Positions 1 through 46,439 of a stretch of 64,000 nt of DNA are shown in pieces. Made by a program: the position numbers and the translations under genes. The stretch spans positions 124,001-188,000 of the forward strand of contig JABANP010000032.1 of assembly GCA_013115135.1 (NCBI GenBank), given 5' to 3'. This DNA comes from Perkinsus olseni. Its lineage: Eukaryota; Perkinsozoa; Perkinsida; Perkinsidae. The notes under the pieces were generated by a model, which saw only the letters and a list, made by a program, of their open reading frames with translations, had not been told where the DNA came from and did not search any database. How positions within the stretch are numbered: the stretch's first letter is position 1; the number at the start of each line of letters is the position of its first letter.

Positions 1-2551
1 CAGGCTTAACCTCATTCTTGAACAGTAACAGGCCAACGAGCGACAAACCTCTTTCGAGTTCATCTCTTGCCATCTTCAGAACAGCACCGTCATCCAGCCC
101 AGAATCGAGCAACTTATATCCCATACCGAGAACATAGAAGTTGCCAGACGACAGACCTTCACAGACCTCCACATAATCCCGAGGAACCGCACTAGCCTTG
201 CATCCCGCCTGGACCCTCTCATAGGAACCCTTTATGATAACGATAAGACGCCCTTCCTCGTCTCTAACGACGCATCCACTGGTCATACGAGTGTGCTCGA
301 ACTCAAGCTGACGGACTACCCGAAGCTGGGATGAACCATCGGGCGACGTCAACACCATCTCGGCACTGCCGACCTCGGGGAGAGCCCAGCCGGATGCCTC
401 GACCATGGCAACCTCTACCTGATTACCAACCAGTCGACCACTCCTCATGGAGGTTACCGTATGGCATGCTGCCAAGCCGTACTGAAGTAGGAGTGGTGAT
501 TTGGCAACCTTGTCGCTGACCGACATAGAACCGCAGAGCTTGTCGCCCTCAGGGGTTCTACTGAGGTCTATCCGGGTGCTGAAGGTGCCGTCCTCCACCG
601 GTACAGCACCCGAGAGTTCCATACCATCCTTAGTGATGGTACCGGTCTTATCAAATACCATAACGGATATTTTACCGGCTACCGGTATCCTCTCAGGCTG
701 AAGGCAGAATATTTTATGATGATTACGTAGACGTTTGGCAGCCACTGTTTGGCCCATCACCATTGCTACTGGTAACATGGGGTTCAATGACTGCAGCACT
801 GACACCAACACCTGCATGACGGTGACGATCCAGTCGCCCATATCAGTAAGGACGAAGTAGAGGACCGACAGGAGTATGGCGTAGGCAAACATGATGCCAT
901 ACACGATCGGTAGCTGATCGTCATACTTGAACCTGAACGACTGGGCTAACGGAAAACCGACCGACCAACGGGGATCTTACCTCACAGACTGGGGGAACAT
1001 GACCATCCTGGACCAATTGGCCCTTGGTTGTTAGGCCACCGGTAGCCGTGACGACCATCACTGCATGGCCGAGATGCGATCCTGTGGACTGCATACAGAG
1101 AGTGCCTGATGAACACACGATGACTAGAGCCACTGAGCAACAACGAGCAGCAGCAAAAATTCATGCACTGTTCACTTGGTTCAACCAACCCCGAGCCTTC
1201 CGAAACTAAGATATGACCGACAGCCCAAAATACTACCCGCATACACCATGTTCTTAGCCGCAAACTTCGCTCCGTCGTACTTCTCCACGGCAACTTTTGG
1301 GACAGGCAAGGGCTCACCAGTGAGCATGGACTCGTTAGCCACCACTGCCCCATCCACGATATACCCATCACACGGTAGATGCTCTTGCTCTTCGATCATT
1401 ATGATATCGCCAAGGACAATCTCCTTAGAGTCTACCACTATCGAAGAGGAGTTACGCAGTACCCTCACGTCAGCACTGTGCTGAGCCAACTTGGAGATTT
1501 TCTTCTGACTGCGTCGCACAATGAAAAGCGCCTTGACGCATCCAGTGACTATCATCATTAGCAACCACACCAGGCCAACGTTCCATCCACTGTAGCCGAG
1601 GTAGGTCCACGAGCCCATACTCTGGACCACGTAAAACAGGCTGCTGAATTCGGTGACAAGACACTTCAGGACCGATGGCACTTCCACAACGATTTCGTTA
1701 GGACCAAGGACGGCCCGTCTGTCGGCCGCCTCCACCTGGCTGAGTCCACCACAGGCTAGTAGCCTTCTAGACTCCTCCGGTGTTATTTCAGTGCTCTCAG
1801 CGGCCGGGCGGAACCGAACCTTCTCTTCATCGTACAGATAACGCATGCATGTGTACTGGATAAATCGTTCGCCACCATCGCTCACTTCAACCGGTACGAT
1901 ACTCTTCTGAGATGCTGTCCTGAACCGCTGAATCACCTGTCGCCAGTTCGCCAAGATCCTACGAGAAATACTCGGCAGAGGCTCGTCGGACGTTTCACCA
2001 GGGTCGCCCATAACGGTCTCGTCCAGGGCGGGGACCTCTTCCTCAATCAGCACGTAGCCAGCGGTTGCCAACGATTGGGGCACCATAAACCAAGCGCGAA
2101 TGGCGTCATAGAAGGAGATGAAGAAAGCCGCCGTAGCATGAAAAACGACAAATGTGAAAAGATAGGGGCCCATGATACCGTTCCAATCGGTACCCATAGC
2201 AGCATACAGGGCGGGGAAGTAGCTCACAGGAGCCAACAGCACCATCACTACGAAAGCTGTAACCATAACCGCTAGCCAGCCTATCCGAGTGACCTCCCCC
2301 GCTTGGGAGACAGAATAGCCGGTTTGTACGAGGCATCTTCCCACCGAGCCATCAGCGCAGGCGAATGGGAGCTTTCGTGTTGCGGAGGACCCAGCCTTCG
2401 CCGCTCGGCCCTTGGCGGCTCTCCGGCGAACCAGTTCCCATCGGTATACCGAAAAACTAATGGTGATTAACGTTAAGATGATGAGAACTATTCCCCAGCA
2501 TAGTAGGAAGAGGGCTGGGAAATCCATATGGCACAAGCGGACGGTGTGCAA
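1..2551 (-). CDS. P5-type (ATP13A-like) cation-transporting ATPase, 5' part
   Basis: Membrane P-type ATPase of the P5 group; family members work in endomembranes, and P5B members transport polyamines. Three exons are readable on the minus strand: 2551–1237, 1105–981 and 940 to the window edge, separated by GT–AG introns of 131 and 40 nt whose removal restores the family sequence. Exon 1 carries N-terminal membrane segments and the actuator loop ending NESMLTGEPLPVPK, a TGES motif with Pro instead of Ser. Exon 3 holds a membrane helix with NPMLPVAM (P5B relatives have PPALP) and then the phosphorylation site FDKTGTITKDGMEL near position 650, whose Asp accepts the phosphate. The protein still continues at the left edge (GLLLFKNEVKP), so the ATP-binding and C-terminal membrane part is missing. 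Start could be at 2551 or at the second Met (2527). P5B is favoured over P5A, but the altered helix-4 motif leaves this open. Confidence 0.9.
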
Positions 2552-3050
2552 TGATGTATATCAATGCTGAAGAAAAGAGGAGTGGCCGACGCCTAGGTAA
2601 ACGCAACGATCATCGTTGTCGGATGATGCAATACTATGGAGTCCCTAGCAGCGCAATCACTGATCGTCTAGACGTAAAGGAAGAAAGTTCCTCTTAAGAA
2701 CTAAACGCAACCCGAGCAGGACGATCGGGGAGAACGTTGAAACGCTGAACATGAGCGGAATAAACGCTTACGCAACATTGTTTTCCGGTACAGCAGCTCG
2801 CTCGTAGTCACCACACAACTCGTTCTCTAACTCACTCTCACTCTCCTACCACACTGTGGTGGTGGCCACTGGGCCAGTCGACCGAGACAATCCACGGCGC
2901 GAAAGTACCTGATCACACAGAAAGTCATCCAGAAAATTTGAGGTGGGCTGTCCATGGCGGACAGCGACGAGCAGGAATCGATCTTAACGAGTGGTTCAGA
3001 ACAACCAGGTGTCTGGCGCAAGTTCCTGTGCGACACACGGCGCGCATATG
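2552..3050. other. Intergenic stretch, no gene seen
   Basis: Upstream region of the minus-strand P5 ATPase. Short open frames exist but none has recognisable motifs or spliceable continuation. The promoter of the ATPase should lie here, but no TATA-like or other element could be assigned. Confidence 0.5.
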
Positions 3051-3530
3051 GTGTGGGACCCACACTGTGGGTCACACCGTGTGACCAACATCACAGTGAA
3101 TATATAATCAACGCATAAAGGAATTGAAACGTGTAGTTGCAGTGCAACTGTTGCACTACGTCGTAGTGACTACGAACGTGACTCACGTTGCGTGAGTCAC
3201 GTTATGTGACGTACCAATGGCACGGTACCATGAAGCGGGAAGTCACTTCCCGAAAGTGTGACCAAGGAGCGACTCGATACGGGACCTACTGGAAATACAC
3301 ATGTCAACACAGAGAGCTTCACCGAGGTCAGTTATCTCCGAAGCTGGTGATTCAGGTCTCGAACGATCAGCTCAACACACTGCTGCCTCACTCACAGTGA
3401 AAGCGGTGCCTCACTCAATGAGGTGACTACATAATGTAGTAATACTACATTATACTACAGTAGCATACATTCCACTAGCACCATGCTACGTAATCTATTA
3501 TACTGTATATATGACGCTCAATCAGCGTCA
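3051..3530. repeat. Chain of overlapping short palindromes (hairpin array)
   Basis: A run of inverted repeats in which the right arm of one hairpin is the left arm of the next. Clear members: 3051–3065 (GTGTGGG/CCCACAC, 1-nt centre), 3057–3073 (8-bp arms), 3070–3086 (GGTCACAC/GTGTGACC), 3135–3149, 3141–3157, 3154–3168, 3161–3175, 3175–3189, 3175–3203 (13-bp arms AACGTGACTCACG, 3-nt loop), 3426–3440, 3431–3453 (10-bp arms), 3455–3463 and 3512–3530 (7-bp arms). Most have a centre of 1 or 3 nt. No open frame with coding character spans the block. Chance cannot explain so many overlapping arms in under 500 bp. Similar hairpins recur at 45.5–47.0 kb. Confidence 0.85.
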
Positions 3531-3867
3531 CAATTGTGCCCAATTCGCGCCAACCTCAACTGGGACGATCCTATCCAAGGCACGGAGTCGCAATAAAGGT
3601 GGCGACCATCAACTTGATGCCATCAAGGCAAGCCAACCGAGCAGGATGCTCACGCTCAGGAGAGACCAAACGCAACGGCTGCTTCGAGATCGGCTGGAAG
3701 TGGAGGAAAAATATCAAGATGGCGTGGCGAGACTGACGTAGAGAAACTCGTATAATTCGAAAGATTGTGGGATCTGATTTTCGTAAACGACCGCAGCAAA
3801 GGAACAAACAGACTGAGTGGAGTAAGGTGAGGACCTCACGAAGCCTGTTCAGTCTTTCAAACTGTTC

Positions 3868-11745: not shown

Positions 11746-12124
11746 CGTACTTCTCATTCAGCGTCGCGTCCCGTGCAGTCGGGTTGATCGATGAACACTG
11801 AAGGGAGTGAAGCATCCACTAAGTATTAGTGTTCACCAGGCAGGCGCTTCCAATGTAATCAGAGCTTCGTCTCTCCTGAGCGTGAAGTCCACAAGGAAGC
11901 GAAGAGCGTGGTGTGCTCGTGACGCGGCATGCCATGCCATCCCCTCATTTTCATACGCGCTTTGCCCATGCCGATGTGCCGTGATGTTACATCACTGATG
12001 TACATGTACTCAACAGAGTTACTGTCGAGGTAGCGTTGCGTTAGATGACATCTACGAGGAGAATTCGGAGTGGGTAGACAAAGTCAGAAGATCGAACTCC
12101 TTCCGTAGGAGGCAGTTCCCGCAG
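11746..12124. other. Intergenic stretch, no gene seen
   Basis: Region between the relic copy and the IFT54-like gene. Only short frames without motifs. Promoter elements of the next gene would be expected here but none could be named. Confidence 0.45.
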
Positions 12125-17165: not shown

Positions 17166-17805
17166 TTGTGTGTCGCTCTGACATGTTTCTTTTTTCGACT
17201 GTACGAGCGGTACGGCGTGGACGGCATGCTTTATGAAGTATGCGTTGCATACTATGCGACGGCTCTCTTACTGGCTGATCAAGACTCCAAATCCCCTAAC
17301 ATCGAGATGTTCACGTTATGGTCGTACCAGATGACTATCAGCATGACGGCGGCTAGGAAGCACGTTGAGGCCAGATGTGTGGAAGGCACTATCTCACTGC
17401 TTTGGTAGAGTATACTAGGCTGGCGCAGATCACCGTCGACAAATCCCCATCGAGTCACCAAGCTCCGTCGTCTCCATCCACGGCAAGTTGCCGTCGGCAA
17501 CGAGTATTGGTATGACCGGCAACAACAACGGTCCGCCCGGTGGGAAGGGAAAAAGAGGCACCAAGCGATCTAATAATGCTCAGGGTCTATGCTACGAGTT
17601 CCTGGAGAACGGTGTGTGTTCGAGGCCCTCTTGCCGGTTCCGTCACGAGAATTCGAGCGACGACGGTAAGCAGAAGAAACAGAAGACGGATGCGAAGAAG
17701 TGTGTGCGTGCAGCTCTCTACGAGCACTCCGAGGCAGGCGCGATGATCGCTTGCCTCGCTTCGTTTCTTACTTCTGAACTTGATCGATATACTGCCCTTT
17801 TGTGA
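17166..17805 (+). pseudogene. CCCH zinc-finger gag-like remnant
   Basis: A CCCH finger CYEFLENGVCSRPSCRFRHE (Cys-x8-Cys-x5-Cys-x3-His) sits at about 17589–17648 between a Gly/Lys-rich stretch (GPPGGKGKRGTKRSN) and a Lys-rich stretch, as in nucleic-acid-binding gag-like proteins. An upstream segment 17205–17407 (YGVDGMLYEVCVAYYATALL) may be the same protein's capsid-like part in a different frame. Its position just 5' of a reverse transcriptase supports a gag role, but a host CCCH protein is possible. Confidence 0.45.
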
Positions 17806-18436: not shown

Positions 18437-19261
18437 GTGCTATTACGCACTGATGAGGCGTGGAAGCACGCGAGCGTCGCTCGCCGAGCGAGTTGGCCGA
18501 AAAAGCCCTCTCGCATGCGAAGGAAGATCTGCGTCAGGGTCGCGCCGACCTTACCGACGGTACAGGTCTCTTTGGCTCCCTCGAGCAACTTCCCTCGGCG
18601 GCCTCGTGGTTTTTGCTGTAACCGCGTCAATGGAAGGATGGTATGTCACACCGCCTTGCCCTTCGGGGCGGCATCGAGTCCTCTCCATTTCTGTCGGTTA
18701 TCCGGGTCGGAGTCGGTGATATGCATGGTAATGTCTCTTCAGCTATACCTTCAGTCGGTTGATGACCGTGCCATACCTACGAAATTGCGGGATGCCCCAA
18801 CGAGCGTCCTCGTATCGGTTCTGGTGGACCTAATATGCGATTTCGAACCGGCCTTCGATAAGCTGTTCGTCTTGCCTCCACCACATTGCTTGGGGTTCAT
18901 CCTAAACCAGGCGAACATGATAATCACCCTCTCCGACGATAAGATCTCTACTTTCCGGTCGGACCTGGCAAGTGTATTCGTCCAGGGTCGGACGGTGAAG
19001 ACGAAGGCCCGCGAACGATTGCTCGGTCGAGTGTCGTGGGTAGCGATGCCTTTCATAAGGCTTCGCCCTTTCTTGAAGCCGTTCCATTTTTCTCTTGCCG
19101 TAGGCAAGTCACGGAATCTCCCTTCCGTGAGGGTCGGGAAGGAGTGGGCGGATGCGGCTCGGTTCCTGTACCGGTTCTTTGGGTCGGGAGCATCGGTTCC
19201 TATGCACAGTCTCCTACCGGATATGGGAGGGATGAACCGGACTGTGGTGAATCACTGGTGA
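18437..19261 (+). pseudogene. Reverse transcriptase remnant (DIRS-like)
   Basis: The frame contains CHTALPFGAASSPLHFCRL, the RT motif LPFG-x(5)-P-x-x-F, and LVSVLVDLICDF where active elements have a YxDD box; here it reads VLVDL, so the second catalytic Asp is lost. Downstream CLGFILNQANMIITLSDDKI matches the LGFxxN block and RERLLGRVSWVAMPFIRLRP the RT–RNase H linker (LLGxLxW). The N-terminal RT part upstream of 18500 is spread over other frames. Confidence 0.65.
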
Positions 19262-19590: not shown

Positions 19591-19879
19591 TCGTCAGGCC
19601 TGGGTTAGGCGGACGTAATTTCACGTCAGTTCATGTTCGAAGGGAAACGGAACTCCCTAGCCGACTGGCCGTCGCGGTCTACCATCACAGAGATAAGGGG
19701 TCACATCATGGGCCATGTGACTCACATGGCCCAGATCCCCCACTGCCAAGAGTTTGATGCGCGACCTTCTTTGAGGATGCTGAAGGATGCGCAAGTGCGC
19801 TGAGTCACAGGATGACACCATGAATCATTTTATGTTTCCGTTTTGGACTGTGATTCGAGTTTGACATCACCACGTATGT

Positions 19880-22372: not shown

Positions 22373-24523
22373 ATGGTCAATAAGCGAGAGGCCGAACGTA
22401 AAAAGCTAGCCAAGCAAAAGGCTATGGAGAAACGACGAGGATACAAGTCCACTAAAAGTGACGAAGAGGTAAGACCGGTGATAGGCTTGCGAAAAATGTG
22501 GTATCGATTCTGTGGCACTTCAACCGACCAGCCCCGCTCCGTCGAACGTGGCTCAGTGTTGTGTGTTTTAGTCCGTGGACACTAAGGCCGAGCTTGAGAA
22601 GAAGATCCAGGACGTTGGTACTGTGCAGAAGTCCGAGCTCCTGCAGCACGCTACCATCACTGGTCATCGGACGTCGCAGTACTTGGCCAAGGATATCAAA
22701 ATCGAACAGTTCAGTATGATTATCGAAGGCAAGGAGTATATCAAGGATACCACTCTGGAGCTCAACATGGGCCGAAGATACGGTATGATCGGTCTCAATG
22801 GCAGTGGTAAAAGTACCATCTTGCAGGCATTGGCCGCCCGTATGGTAAGTGATGGGAGTGGCTCTTAGAACAGCTGTTGGCGTATTGGTGTTGTGGCTCT
22901 CTTCAGGTCGACATACCCGACTATGTTGATATCTGGCTTCTTCACGAGGAGTATCCTCCTTCTGAGCAGACTGCTCTTGAGGCCGTCATCAGTTATGTCG
23001 CGACTGAGCAGAAGAGGCTCGAGGCCCTCATGATGGATATTATGGAGAACCATCCGGAGAACATGGACCTGGTCGAGCAGATCGGTTTCCGCTTGGACGA
23101 GTTGGACCCTCAAACCTTCGAGATTCGGGCTAGGGAGCTTCTCACTGGTCTCGGGTTCAAGGAGGATATGGTCCAGAAGAAGACAAAGGACATGAGTGGT
23201 GGTTGGAGAATGCGAGTAGCGCTCGCCCAGGCGTTGTTCGTCAAGCCTACTTTGCTGCTACTTGATGAGCCTACCAACCATCTCGATTTGGAGGCATGCA
23301 TTTGGCTGGAGAACTACTTGTCTAAATACGACAAGATTCTCGTCGTTGTATCGCACTCGCAAGATTTCCTTAACGGCGTATGTACCAATATTTGGCATCT
23401 TACCTGCCAGGGGACCTTCGAGTACTACAGTGGCAACTACGACACCTTCGTACGTACTCGTGCCGAGAACGAGGCCAACCAAATGATGAAGTGGAAGAAG
23501 GAGCAAGATGACATCAAGCATTTGAAGCAGTTCATCGCCACTAGTGGCGGAATGGAGAAGGCGGTCCGTCAGGCTCAGTCCAAGCAGAAGATCATTGACA
23601 AGATGGTCGAGGCTGGCCTCACTGCTAGGCCCGTCCCGGACCCGGTGTACTCCTTCCGGTTCCCCGAGTGTGATAGGTTGCCTCCACCAGTGTGCTCCTT
23701 CAACGACGTCACTTTCGCCTACAGTGGTAAGGTCAAGGATATCCTTTACAAGCACATGAGCTTTGGTATCGATCTGGATTCTCGAGTGGCTCTGGTTGGC
23801 CCGAATGGTGCTGGCAAGACCACGCTCCTGAAGCTGATGGAGGGTAAGCTGGAGCCCAGCCTCGGTACCATCTCCCGTCATGCTCATTTGCGATGGGGAA
23901 GGTTCAACCAGCACTCCACCGATCAGCTTGATTTGACCAAGACACCTCTGCAGTTCATGCGCGATAAGTTCGCCGACGGTCTTGCCACGGTCGACGGCAC
24001 GAAGGTCCTCGGTGTGGAGGAGTGGCGTTCTAAGCTGGGCCAGTTCGGTATCACTGGTCAGTGGCAGACTCAACCCATGGAGACCATGAGCCACGGTTTC
24101 CAGGCTAGGGTGGCCTTCTGTCTGGTGGCCCTCGCTAACCCTCATGTTCTCCTACTCGATGAGCCTACCAATCACTTGGATATGTCCTGTATCGACTCTC
24201 TTGCTAAGGCCATCAACAACTACAATGGTGGTCTGGTCCTTGTTAGTCATGACTTCCGTCTGATCTCGCAAGTTGCCAAGGAGATTTGGGTGGTCGATCA
24301 CGGCGTGAAGAGGTGGGACGGCAGTATTGAAGATTATAAGAAGTCATTGACGAAGCAAGTACTACGGTCTGGCCACCGTAAGAGGGAGCCCCTCAAGTCG
24401 CTAAGACGGTCGTGGCCAAGAAGTAGCCCTGCTCTCGCCTCTCGTATCAACAGCGATAGCCACGCTGTTGGTGCTGTAATATACTATTCGAATGCTACAG
24501 CCGAGAGATGTCAACGTCAATGA
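22373..24523 (+). CDS. ARB1/ABCF2-type ABC-F ATPase
   Basis: ABC-F protein with two ATPase domains and no membrane part; ARB1/ABCF2 relatives act in 40S and 60S ribosome biogenesis. Exons 22373–22468, 22572–22844 and 22907 onward; introns of 103 and 62 nt are GT–AG in phase. The N-terminus is Lys/Arg-rich (REAERKKLAKQKAMEKRRGY). Domain 1: Walker A GLNGSGKST, signature MSGGWRMRVALAQAL, Walker B LLLLDEPTNHLDL. Domain 2: GPNGAGKTTLLK, signature MSHGFQARVAFCLVAL (the usual GGQ or DGQ replaced by HGF), Walker B LLLDEPTNHLDM, H-loop VLVSHDFRLI. The end is ambiguous: reading through gives a stop at 24521–24523, while removing a 20-nt GTAAGA…AAG segment (24378–24397) gives a Lys-rich end at 24426. 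Confidence 0.95.
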
Positions 24524-26979: not shown

Positions 26980-29350
26980 TGTGACTGCCATACAAAAGTG
27001 GGAAGCAATACCTGCTTCGCTCCGCTAATATCAGGCCGCTGCTGAGTGGTCATTTCAGATACGCAGAGCTGGAAAGGACAGGTGGGTTACTGGATGCTCG
27101 GAGGGTCCTTGCAGTCGAGGAGCAGCTGCCTATTACCTGCGAGGTGGGATGCCCTCCTGGGTGGTTCCTGATGGTGGTGAATGAACGAACCATGCGGTAC
27201 TTTCATGCTAGGCTAATCTCTTCGACTGTCCTCAGGAGAGAGGCCCATCTATGGTCTACGACATGGAGATGGTCCCCCTTGAACGTTTCCGATCCCTCAC
27301 AGCTATCGGAGCTGTTGTTGGTAAGCATGTCTCCTGGTAAGCAAGTCTGGTCATTACTGCAGCGTGTAGGACGTACTTGAAGCGGGAAGGAGTCAATTCT
27401 GGCCTCTTGTCTGGCTCAGCAAATTCTGCCTTCCTGGGCAGGTAGTAGGGAGGTGGACTACTCTCGCATGGTGCTCCCTATACAGTAACAATAGCAAGAG
27501 TCACTGCAACACTACTGTTCAACTAAACAACTCCTCGTGTGGCGTATTAGATTATGCAAAAGCCATCGACAGTAGTCCTTGAGCAATAATTACATACCAT
27601 AACATCCGTACATCAACAAGTCTTACAACGGTGCCAATCACTACTGAACGTTTGAATCGTGTGCAACTTGTTCCTTTCAGGCAGCGCTCATGGCTCTCTG
27701 TGCCTGGAAGCGGGCGTTAGAGGGCGACAGTGAGGGGGTCCTCAATTACATGGCCATGGGGACCGAGCTGATACAATACGGGTTGGCTGACCTCGTTAGT
27801 CGCCGCTGGATTGATGTGGTTTGGTATCTTTAGGATGTCCTGCATGCTCGAGCACAGCAGAGAAGATCTACCCCTCAACGCAACGGTATCATAGTAGTTC
27901 GAAAGGAATCTCTGAGGTTTCCCATGTGCTTAGGTGCTTTCAGACGTCCTGCAGGGCAGAGTGCCGTTGTCCCTACAGGGTATAGTCATCGATCCAGGCC
28001 AAGGGGAGGAGTATGCTGATACGGCCTATCGGTGAGTGTTGGCATGAATGATGGTGGAAGTGCCGCTGAGGAGTGTTGTCTGAGGGCTGTCGCCTCCTGG
28101 GCAGCTTCCTTCGACGACTTCTTGCGGGCAGGGCATAATTAAACCTTGTGACGTTCGCGGCCGAAAGTTTCGAGGAGTAATGAGGTATGCAGTTGCTGCT
28201 GGCAATCATCAACTCGTCCACGAGGGAGTTATTCGGTGCTGTTGTTCGTGGACCTGGAATGCACATCACGGGTGCCTCCTCCTCATTAATGTTCAAGCCA
28301 TGGCAAGGTCTTATCTCGGGTCCCATGGACATACCTTGGAGATGCGTCGGAAGGAAACGCTTTTGTTGTTCACTTTTGCTAAGCCCTTCCCAAATTATTT
28401 GGGCCAAATAGTCTAGTCCACTCAGTAGGATGCACGGTACATCACACCCCCTATAGTGTCGCAGAAGGAAACTGTGCGGGGATTACCAGTGTGGAGGAAT
28501 CCCAAACCGTGTATTGTGGTCAGGGCGTGCATCCCCCTCCAAGTCGAGGGCTGCTGGCCTTGGATTGCATGGACGACGCATGAGAGCTGTGAGATGTACA
28601 CTGTGTCGCTGTGTGCTGTACCATCAGCCGTATGGCATTACAGGTGTTGTGACCCTGATATCGAGGAGAAGCCCACTGCTTGTGGGAGGGATCTGAGGCG
28701 ATGCTGCAACCTAGGGGAGGAAGCTAGAGTCCAGCAGCCAACTTGTGAGGTCTCAGTCACATTGCGCTGGGAGGTCTCCGTCCTGATCAGCGCCGATTCG
28801 GCTGCTGCACGACACCGCGCCCCCGTGGGATGAGCTTCAGCGGTTGCGGACGAGCCTCAGAAATTGGCGGCAAGTTGGATGTTTATGGCCGAGGCTGGTG
28901 CAGATGTATACTCACAATCGAACCGAGGAAGAGTTGCAGGAGGCGGAAGCTGCTGAGTGGAAGAAGGCACGCGAGCTGGGAGTAGTAAGTAAGAAGCCAA
29001 TCTACGAATGTGGCGTGGAGTGGTACTCGATGGGCGTCGCTGAGGTGAGCTCCACGATGTCCGTACTGCCGCATCGCCGGAAAGCATAGCAGAATGGTGA
29101 GCCAGTGGGGAGCGCGTGAGAAATGAAGAGGTGGTTGCGCAGGTGGGAGCTGCCCGAGGGCCATCAGAGGGTCTTCCCGCAGGAAGATGTTTGGGCGATT
29201 AAAGGACCAGTCTGCTTCGACCTTCGTAAGCACGGGGCAAGGCATGCGCGCCGCGTTGTGCGACAGTACGCCCAACCTGCGCAGTCAGAGTATCACTTAC
29301 TGAGACGCGTCCCAGGCGCGACCGTCTCCCTCCTCATTCGCGTCACAATC
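26980..29350 (+). CDS. Putative multi-exon protein of unknown function
   Basis: Not recognised. Several short plus-strand blocks with good coding character are bounded by plausible splice sites: about 27030–27142 (AELERTGGLLDARRVLAVEE QLPITCE), 27234–27320 (MVYDMEMVPLERFRSLTAIG), 27683–27795 (AALMALCAWKRALEGDSEGV), 27935–28031 (VLSDVLQGRVPLSLQGIVID), 28810–29045 (PWDELQRLRTSLRNWRQ, then EEELQEAEAAEWKKARELGV) and about 29140–29255 (WELPEGHQRVFPQEDVWAIK). They may be one gene or two. No catalytic or binding motif was found. The stretch 27330–27680 shows no coding block and would be an intron. Confidence 0.35.
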
Positions 29351-44494: not shown

Positions 44495-46439
44495 TGCTAT
44501 ATTCAAACGTGCGCGATTTACTTCAACATTTACGGGAACATTTCTAGAACGGTTGCTAGGTGCTTGTTCGGGAATGGATTCGATTGGGCGAGTCCATGGC
44601 GAGCGAGGGTGGAAGCCACTCACTGGCTGATTGACTTAGCCTGTCTAGTTCGTACTCCATGTCTCATTGCCTCAGTTATTTGATTCCCATGATGAGGTGA
44701 TTCACCTGGGCGAAGCGCACAATTACACGCCCATACTCTCGAAGACGGTACAGAGCCGTATGGCTAAACTCAGGTAAACCACGGCTCGCCAGGAGAAATT
44801 TGTACCCCAGAGCGCCGAGACGAGAAAGGCTGCGTATGCGAGCTTGCTTTTTGGTGGAAACCAAGTATGCTCGCATTGTGTCAGTACTGCTTCTTCGGCA
44901 CTATCGGTGGGCTAAAGTTCGCCAAGGGAATCTCTTTCTCGAGGAATCGGGATTGGTTAACCGCTTGTTGCTGAGTTTCATGTGATGTTCCTGGAATGTA
45001 GACGCTTCGAGGCAAAACTTTTCTGAGGAGCCTCTTCGGGCGTTCTAGGGCTGCCCAGTAGTTGGCAAAGCCGCAGCGATTGAGTCGCTGCTATCTGTGC
45101 ATTCTGCTAGAGCTGTTTTAGTACTCGACATACTTAGTAGTGTCCGCCACGCGGGGGGAGGTTGTCCCGCGCGCACTCCTCTTGCGAGGTTCACTGTGGT
45201 GCAGATCTCGGTTCGGTTTGTCGGGCATCGGATTTCGCACTACACGGATCGTGGCGGCTCTCAGTGGTGCTCGAATCGTTTTGTCAAGAAGATGAGTAGC
45301 CGAGGACTAGATACGAGACTCGTATTAGGAGTTTTACTCTGTACGGACGTGAGCTATTTAATGAGAATTTTTGGAATGTCAGTCGTTCGGCGTTAGTGAC
45401 GCCGCGTACCGCGTTAGTTCAGCAGAACCCCACTTATTTCATTTGGTTTATGCATCGAGTTCCGGCGGTGGTCAGCGCTATGGTTTGGAGTTGGGGAGCA
45501 CGAGTTTAAGAAGGATGAATGAAGTTACTTTGACCGTCAGAATCTGACGGCAAAACTTCTGATGTCTTAGACTAGTCATTCCATCCCAATTATGCTGTTC
45601 GGCTGCAGCAGCGACAGACTCTAATGATCTGAGTCCCATTTTGGAACTCGATCAGCGACTGACTACACTGGGGTGAGTCAGTGAACTATCGAACTCCTGT
45701 TTGGAGTGCTTGCTATCATCCTCGCACCCTTAGGGCTGGTGATTCAGAGCCTGGACTGCAGATTGGGCGTCTCTCCGACGGGGAGTCACCGTTGTCCGCT
45801 GTCGCGTGGGGTACTTCACTGACAGTGAATCACTGTGGGAGTGTTCCAGTTATGCGAGGTGGCTCAGTACCGAGTTCCCAAACCTGCCTATGTGAGCAAC
45901 GTATTCGGGGCACTCTTATTGATCGACGGGTGATGTTTCAGGCCAGCTTCAAGCGGTGGTTTGATGGACGGAACTACGTGGACTGCTCGAACACTTGCGA
46001 CTACTATATTACTTCAAGAGCGTCACTGATTGTGCGGTCACTATGTTTGCTTTGCTCTATTTCTCGATGGCGTCGTTCAGAGTCTAAAATGTGGACAGTC
46101 TAGTTTGAATGATGGTATCGCCTCTAAATCAATCTGATTCAATCAGATCCTCTGAGTACTCGAGCTACTCATGTACTCAGAAGTACTCGAGGAACCATTC
46201 ACTCCTACTGTGCTCGTCTCCTCCGCTCGACGGCTTTAGTTTGGGCTGTTCCTGGGTCAAGTTTGCGAACCCCGTGGGTTCTGGATCTCGAGGTGGTACC
46301 AATATCATATTCACTATCGTAGTGACATCTGCGGGGATCCCGCAGCGGGATCATCAGGGTATCGAATGTACGACGTAGGACTTCGTCGTGACCTGGGCAC
46401 AGGACTTTTTACCGTGTATTTTTCCGCATTCTGTTTACT
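44495..46439. other. Long intergenic region, hairpin-rich, no supported gene
   Basis: Two open frames of about 100 and 140 codons (45097–45396 and 45681–46103) lack motifs and overlap hairpin sequences, so they are probably not genes. The region would include the CTR9 3' end and the promoter of the gene starting at 46440. Confidence 0.5.

Follow-up and report, generated by a model that had tools for sequence, protein, structure and literature searches.

Chained palindromes in the Perkinsus olseni genome as probable stacked excision scars of hAT-superfamily transposons

In V(D)J recombination, opened hairpins leave palindromic additions called P-nucleotides, which are usually very short and come without a target duplication. 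An analogy to this process has been drawn for hAT transposons (PMC2803484), whose transposition closes the flanks of the donor site as hairpins (PMC5873905, PMC1978519). Palindromes in hAT footprints are already known, and those described elsewhere are centred on the complement of the element-adjacent base (PMC5873905). Most recorded hAT footprints (Ac/Ds in plants, yeast, Candida; TcBuster in human cells) are short, varied insertions or deletions (PMC5873905, PMC1978519, PMC3499496): P-nucleotides in Candida reach up to 3 nt, and arms of at least 3 nt were present in 66 of 140 yeast footprints, the longest being 20 (both quoted in PMC5873905). One footprint can dominate at a single site, as in 11 of 17 cases for a Ds in Arabidopsis (PMC1978519).

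Here we describe a locus of Perkinsus olseni that resembles TcBuster in human cells and Hermes in its 8-bp duplication, and hAT systems in its putative hairpin intermediates (PMC5873905, PMC3499496, PMC10368747). It differs from known hAT footprints in that one full-length 22-bp format recurs at site after site, shorter classes being no commoner than chance, and in that the scars are dense and stacked; unlike V(D)J P-nucleotides, they retain the full inverted duplication. In the portions of open-licence PubMed Central texts covered by our literature search, we found no description of a uniform full-length product across sites, of its genome-wide density or of stacking.

The window, by which we mean the whole stretch of 64,000 nucleotides analyzed (contig JABANP010000032.1, positions 124,001 to 188,000), belongs to an assembly of 61.5 Mb in 968 contigs. 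A first-pass annotation had pointed to a chain of at least a dozen linked perfect inverted repeats with 1- or 3-nt centres at 3051–3530; all the coordinates it cited are correct, and 12 such repeats with arms of at least 6 are present. Allowing centres of up to 5 nt brings the count to 13 (11 with a 1-nt, one with a 3-nt and one with a 5-nt centre). In the slightly longer interval 3001–3640, 13 repeats with an arm of at least 6 have a centre of exactly 1 nt, whereas 500 dinucleotide shuffles averaged 0.16 and never exceeded 2. The palindromes are often paired and overlapping, with centres exactly 7 bp apart. As first described, the hairpins are unlike one another in sequence and do not form a single tandemly repeated unit; what they have in common is a format.

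For an 8-mer N1..N8, that format reads N1-N7, the reverse complement of N1-N8, then N2-N8: a 22-bp motif, which we call a scar, composed of two 1-nt-centred palindromes 7 bp apart. We consider it very probable that hAT-superfamily transposons, on excision, left at least eight scars stacked in this block. Within 2991–3660, nine scars collapse one by one with at most one substitution each, some becoming visible only after another has been removed, and eight of the nine lie within 3050–3258; of 200 shuffled versions of the block, just 2 allowed any collapse. The scars of the block and the perfect scars elsewhere in the window are as follows.

3051..3072, no strand: scar, target 8-mer GTGTGGGT, 0 substitutions; nested in the 3050..3085 scar
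3050..3085, no strand: older scar, target 8-mer GGTGTGAC, 1 substitution; seen only once the 3051-3072 scar is undone
3135..3156, no strand: scar, target 8-mer AGTTGCAC, 0 substitutions
3140..3175, no strand: scar, target 8-mer CACTACGA, 0 substitutions; overlaps the 3135-3156 scar, the full 22-bp scar itself being at 3154-3175
3175..3196, no strand: scar, target 8-mer AACGTGAG, 1 substitution; nested in the 3175..3210 scar
3175..3210, no strand: older scar, target 8-mer AACGTGAC, 1 substitution; seen only once the 3175-3196 scar is undone
3210..3231, no strand: scar, target 8-mer CGTACCAT, 1 substitution
3237..3258, no strand: scar, target 8-mer GGGAAGTG, 1 substitution; exceeds the unscarred paralogue in stretch L003 by exactly 14 bp
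3606..3627, no strand: scar, target 8-mer CCATCAAG, 1 substitution; beyond the 3051-3530 block
11981..12002, no strand: perfect scar, target GTGATGTA
17480-17501, 18470-18491, 28389-28410 and 45815-45836: further perfect scars

Adjoining the block is a P-type ATPase gene, with the block on its 5' side; the best named relatives of its frame are in Perkinsus chesapeaki (60% identity over 95% of the query) and P. marinus (60% over 63%).

1181..2551, minus strand: P-type ATPase open frame with E1-E2 ATPase and cation ATPase N-terminal domains

A tandem paralogue of this gene and its flank, about 6 kb away, provides a measure of what the scars have added. Undoing eight scars (112 bp) shortens 3045–3300 from 256 to 144 bp and, in alignment with the paralogue, cuts the internal gap columns from 84 to 4, with 111 of 144 aligned positions identical. 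The alignment score rises from 100.7 to 146.7 (96.2 after the first removal), whereas 1,000 random removals of eight 14-mers gave at most 120.3. Over the longer span 3041–3587, collapse lowers the gap columns from 146 to 92 only, for two reasons: scars do not account for the differences at 3380–3510, and an old scar of the paralogue itself was collapsed as well. Since scar collapse nearly restores collinearity with the paralogue, and few repeats are common to the two, most of the chain postdates the gene duplication and was built by repeated events confined to some 100 bp of the original sequence.

In 2991–3660, 12 of the 15 inverted repeats with an arm of at least 6 and a centre of up to 5 nt are centred in scars; among them is the one with a 3-nt centre, and the exceptions are 3426–3440, 3431–3453 and 3512–3530.

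3175-3203: 3-nt-centred inverted repeat, arm 13
3426..3453: overlapping pair of palindromes with arms of 7 and 11 and 1-nt centres; no scar fits within 2 substitutions
3512..3530: inverted repeat, arm 7, 5-nt centre; also in the paralogue (L003:6962-6980) and not a scar

Of the two overlapping palindromes, 3426–3440 is common to the paralogue (L003:6912-6926), where a scar with 2 substitutions is readable, and 3431–3453 sits in DNA that the paralogue is without. Compared with L003:6880-6960, the region 3380–3510 contains inverted and inserted segments that do not read as standard scars, among them a CTTTCGCTGTGAGTGAGG-like piece that appears to be inverted.

The first-pass annotation was right to see repeated hairpin-related events as the builders of the chain. 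The mechanism it suggested as possible was repeated template switching at hairpins in replication; in the short-range form considered here, a nascent strand copies a nearby complementary template in reverse and returns, repeatedly. Template switching is known to give rise de novo to perfect inverted repeats, a likeness to the chain, as well as to RNA hairpins (PMC8794818), and segments inverted relative to the paralogue are indeed present, for example around 3380–3425. It predicts variable lengths and centres, however, and the observed geometry is fixed: an 8-mer, 1-nt centres, a centre distance of 7 and a net gain of 14 bp. Nor does it predict the T2/A7 bias of the targets described below, and to our knowledge template-switch mutations have neither a target duplication nor a fixed 8/1/14 geometry. 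We therefore regard template switching as an exceedingly unlikely origin of the block.

The same geometry stands out well beyond the block. We scanned 324 kb of this one genome (the window plus 26 stretches of 10 kb) for motifs with word lengths of 6–12, centres of 0–3 and at most two mismatches. Length 8 with centre 1 gave 101 motifs against 1.3 expected in 324 kb (42 perfect, 27 with one mismatch and 32 with two), and the 42 perfect copies at centre distance 7 compare with 0 in five shuffles of 324 kb. Under perfect matching, word length 8 alone is in excess and lengths 6, 7, 9 and 10 are near chance, as an 8-bp target duplication would have it; the centre and length scans likewise agree with a footprint that has a 1-nt centre formed by the complement of the element-adjacent base.

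With 2 mismatches allowed, other settings show weaker excesses, which overlap the length-8 scars to varying degrees. Length 10 with centre 3 occurs 69 times versus 2.3 expected (67 overlapping length-8 scars), length 9 with centre 3 33 times versus 11.3 (13 overlapping), length 8 with centre 3 220 times versus 139 (39 overlapping) and length 7 with centre 1 43 times versus 9.7 (16 overlapping, none perfect). For length 6, the counts are 218 versus 147 with centre 1 (44 overlapping) and 25 versus 14 with centre 0 (none overlapping). A simple direct-repeat class reached 388 versus 82 in shuffles, which preserve dinucleotides but not microsatellites.

A density no higher than base composition predicts had been named in advance as the outcome that would count against the chain being unusual. 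In the 260 kb outside the window, repeats with an arm of at least 7 and a 1-nt centre number 150 against 15 expected, so the excess, being present outside the window too, is not one of composition. Over the same 260 kb, 0-nt centres (12 versus 15.8) and 2-nt centres (11 versus 12.8) stand at 0.8–0.9 of expectation; for centres of 3 to 12 nt the ratio is 1.0–2.1. The window outside the block contributes 25 such 1-nt-centred repeats, compared with 3.8 in the whole shuffled window. Counted by exact arm, the 1-nt-centred repeats of the 260 kb number 256 at 5, 86 at 6, 98 at 7, 32 at 8, 9 at 9 and 4 at 10; the second peak at 7, with approximately fourfold decay beyond it, looks as if arms of 7 were built and longer ones were luck. 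A 50-kb control from E. coli K-12 showed no comparable bias, with 6 repeats of arm at least 7 having a 1-nt centre and 3, 5 and 1 having 0-, 2- and 3-nt centres.

Perfect palindromes in intergenic DNA on the 5' side of a gene might also be read as a functional structure, such as a structured RNA, a protein-binding array or a selfish hairpin element, and the first-pass annotation had raised the first and last of these. An Rfam scan restricted to gathering thresholds gave no match in the block and just a tRNA elsewhere in the window. Copies of a selfish element would have sequence in common, whereas here the format alone recurs, in 16 of 20 scattered stretches and within repeats, and the paralogue exists without the extra DNA. 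We give a functional structure hardly any credence.

Recursive collapse recovered 120 scars with at most 2 substitutions in the sample, compared with 5.3 in shuffles. The window and neighbouring DNA, 124 kb together, accounted for 41 of them; the other 79 came from 20 scattered stretches (200 kb in total), of which 16 held at least one scar. At the density of the scattered stretches, 61.5 Mb would hold some 24,000 scars, a rough estimate because single stretches vary from 0 to 24 scars. The densest stretch in the sample, L012, has 24 scars per 10 kb, and the other 10-kb stretches have 0 to 9. From 0 to 4 substitutions, observed and shuffled counts were 42/0, 32/0, 48/2.8, 102/31 and 413/305, and because the excess extends through the classes (42, 32, 45 and 71 above shuffles at 0, 1, 2 and 3 substitutions), the scars appear to span all ages. 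They are under-represented in open frames of at least 150 aa, our proxy for genes (15 of 120 versus 37.9 expected), and they cluster: with the chain included, 8 neighbours lie within 30 bp of each other, whereas 500 random placements gave 2.8 on average and 7 at most. Five scars in the sample are nested, three of them in the 3051–3530 block.

Related copies with and without a scar allow the net gain to be read directly. Self-alignment of the sample produced 35 alignments with 16,932 columns, in which both of the two 14-bp gaps are a scar facing an unscarred site, as against none of the seven other gaps of 10–18 bp.

Window 3237-3258: scar facing the unscarred site in L003
L015:169-190: scar facing the unscarred site in its paralogue

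In the flank of a retroelement, a perfect scar is present in three stretches (L029, L030 and L031) and its 8-mer CTCAGAGC occurs singly in a fourth, L032; reciprocally, L032 carries another scar, with 2 mismatches, and is there 14 bp longer than L029–L031. Each of these four scarred and unscarred pairs differs by exactly 14 bp, that is, the relatives hold the site once.

Scars can also be found inside multicopy DNA. In a 555-bp repeat (L012:7191-7745), the same scar, CTGGTGA GTCACCAG TGGTGAC, is present in all 11 copies aligned (L012 and L036–L045), and there were 39 further matches among 40 scored of 283 candidates. We considered this repeat as a miniature transposon and dropped the idea; it is SINE-like, with a tRNA-like head recognized by eye and varying 3' flanks. 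As the scar is identical in all 11 aligned SINE-like copies, a single scar was probably multiplied by retrotransposition.

Taking over the cleavage chemistry by analogy with known hAT systems, we propose the following course. Insertion of a hAT element would duplicate the 8-bp target N1..N8. On departure, transposase would cut 1 nt outside each end and the flanks would be sealed as hairpins, the left one N1-N7 + N8'-N1' and the right one N8'-N2' + N1-N8. Both hairpins would then be opened not at the tip but close to the outer end of the duplication or past it, leaving the inverted target copies single-stranded and complementary. Annealing of N8'..N1' with N1..N8, which we infer as the joining step, followed by trimming, fill-in and ligation, would yield N1-N7 / N8'-N1' / N2-N8, a net gain of 14 bp over the empty site that would be identical whatever the precise nick. 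Re-entry at one spot would make scars overlap and nest, so that a single arm would come to be used by two hairpins. Donor hairpins of the hAT type would explain the geometry, the scarred and unscarred pairs and the target bias. The scheme draws on what can be read from the DNA itself: the format, its specificity for length 8 and a 1-nt centre, the additional 14 bp relative to unscarred relatives, the nesting, the target bias and the hAT elements with 8-bp duplications.

Those hAT elements are part of the same genome, in which we found 21 matches to the transposase domain PF05699 and 6 to PF14291, 4 of the latter above cut-off. One element of 2,675 bp (L029:2731-5405) has an open 666-aa transposase frame with both domains, related ends starting CAGTGGCGGC and CAGGAGCGGC, and an 8-bp duplication, TAGGGCTT; relatives of its insertion site in L031 and L032 are unoccupied. 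The second of its two copies found in all (contig C816:7489-10164) has a different 8-bp duplication, CCTGATTC, and was given as 100% identical, with at least one base differing at the right end. Near-identical copies with different duplications suggest recent movement. Within 6.5 kb, stretch L029 also contains 8 scars of at most 2 mismatches.

The target consensus of Hermes is nTnnnnAn (PMC10368747, PMC2803484). Among all 120 target 8-mers of the Perkinsus olseni scars, T occupies position 2 in a fraction of 0.42 and A position 7 in 0.33, compared with a background of 0.24; for the 77 with at most 1 substitution, the fractions are 0.44 and 0.40. T2 and A7 occur jointly in 16 targets versus 6.8 expected, so the preference is present as a bias and not as a strict rule. 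Position 1 is biased too (C 0.38, T 0.11), and at position 7 G is slightly above A in the full set. The duplications of the two intact hAT copies, TAGGGCTT and CCTGATTC, do not fit nTnnnnAn.

Duplications of 8 bp occur outside hAT too, and another cut-and-paste superfamily that makes them, such as Merlin or P, could in principle have left the scars. Perkinsus marinus has Merlin-related frames (PMC8101967). Of these two superfamilies, we searched for Merlin alone, and its transposase domain (PF12762) had no match at E 0.001 in an exon-by-exon search, which a split gene could escape. Donor-flank hairpins with a 1-nt offset are documented hAT chemistry (PMC5873905, PMC1978519), and the target bias is hAT-like. 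We consider an origin in another superfamily very unlikely, and hAT transposons the probable makers of the scars. The elements behind most scars were not found in the genome, and no scar site with its element still in place was seen in the one genome examined. A strict search of the sample for an 8-bp duplication with matching 11-bp ends recovered no element and no excess above other duplication lengths: all 4 matches lay inside one inverted repeat in L017 and had palindromic 'duplications', and other lengths gave 0 to 17. That repeat (L017:3248-6113) is large and near-perfect, with nested matching 22-base ends at four positions.

The uniformity of the product sets these scars apart from the heterogeneous short P-nucleotide and deletion products of plants and fungi, which did not appear in our scan, itself blind to deletion products. 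Shorter classes, with centre distances of 1–6, numbered 4 versus 5.6 expected, that is, chance, and the longer classes at distances of 14 and 21 had one member each. We treat the absence of short heterogeneous products as a difference in repair and not as a defining feature. Hairpin opening beyond the duplication, followed by annealing, would account for the lack of shorter classes and for the occasional longer product whose arms extend past it. Loss of classical end joining is not supported as the cause of the uniform product because a Ku match, weak and partial (28.3 bits), is present in the genome, as are matches to DNA polymerase A, Mre11 and ligase.

On balance, we lean towards a broader reading in which hAT breaks in this alveolate lineage are nearly always resolved by one route, with hairpins opened past the duplication and inverted copies annealed. 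The genome would then carry tens of thousands of datable 22-bp scars, excision rather than insertion would be the main mark left by DNA transposons, and some intergenic spots would have been entered and left many times. We hold this reading with only slightly better than even confidence because the annealing step is conjectural and the source elements are missing. As to why this spot was used so often, accessible intergenic DNA, local reinsertion and scars serving as favourable palindromic targets are all possibilities; Hermes reportedly favours nucleosome-free DNA.

Counts of transposons normally rest on surviving copies; here, it is the departures that become countable, through a signature that is nearly free of background. 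For a DNA-transposon superfamily, the history of excision could thereby be measured, with events roughly datable through substitutions, and so could the repair of hairpin-ended breaks in a protist, in which one product dominates. Site reuse as a builder of strange intergenic sequence likewise becomes measurable. By adding DNA in 14-bp steps, scars give rise to small insertions and palindromes that would escape ordinary annotation.

The rare longer products inform on the position at which hairpins are opened. Among the 11 SINE-like copies, one alone (L040, on contig C108) carries a 30-bp insertion with two hairpin arms of 8 and 14 nt and 1-nt centres, which surrounds an 8-mer present once in the other 10. 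Longer two-hairpin products with arms beyond the 8-bp target are also present at L024:6343-6385, with arms of 11 and 10, and at 19700–19735 of the window. Further along the window, 22877–24523 encodes an ABCF2-like ATP-binding protein that is up to 66% identical to its relatives.
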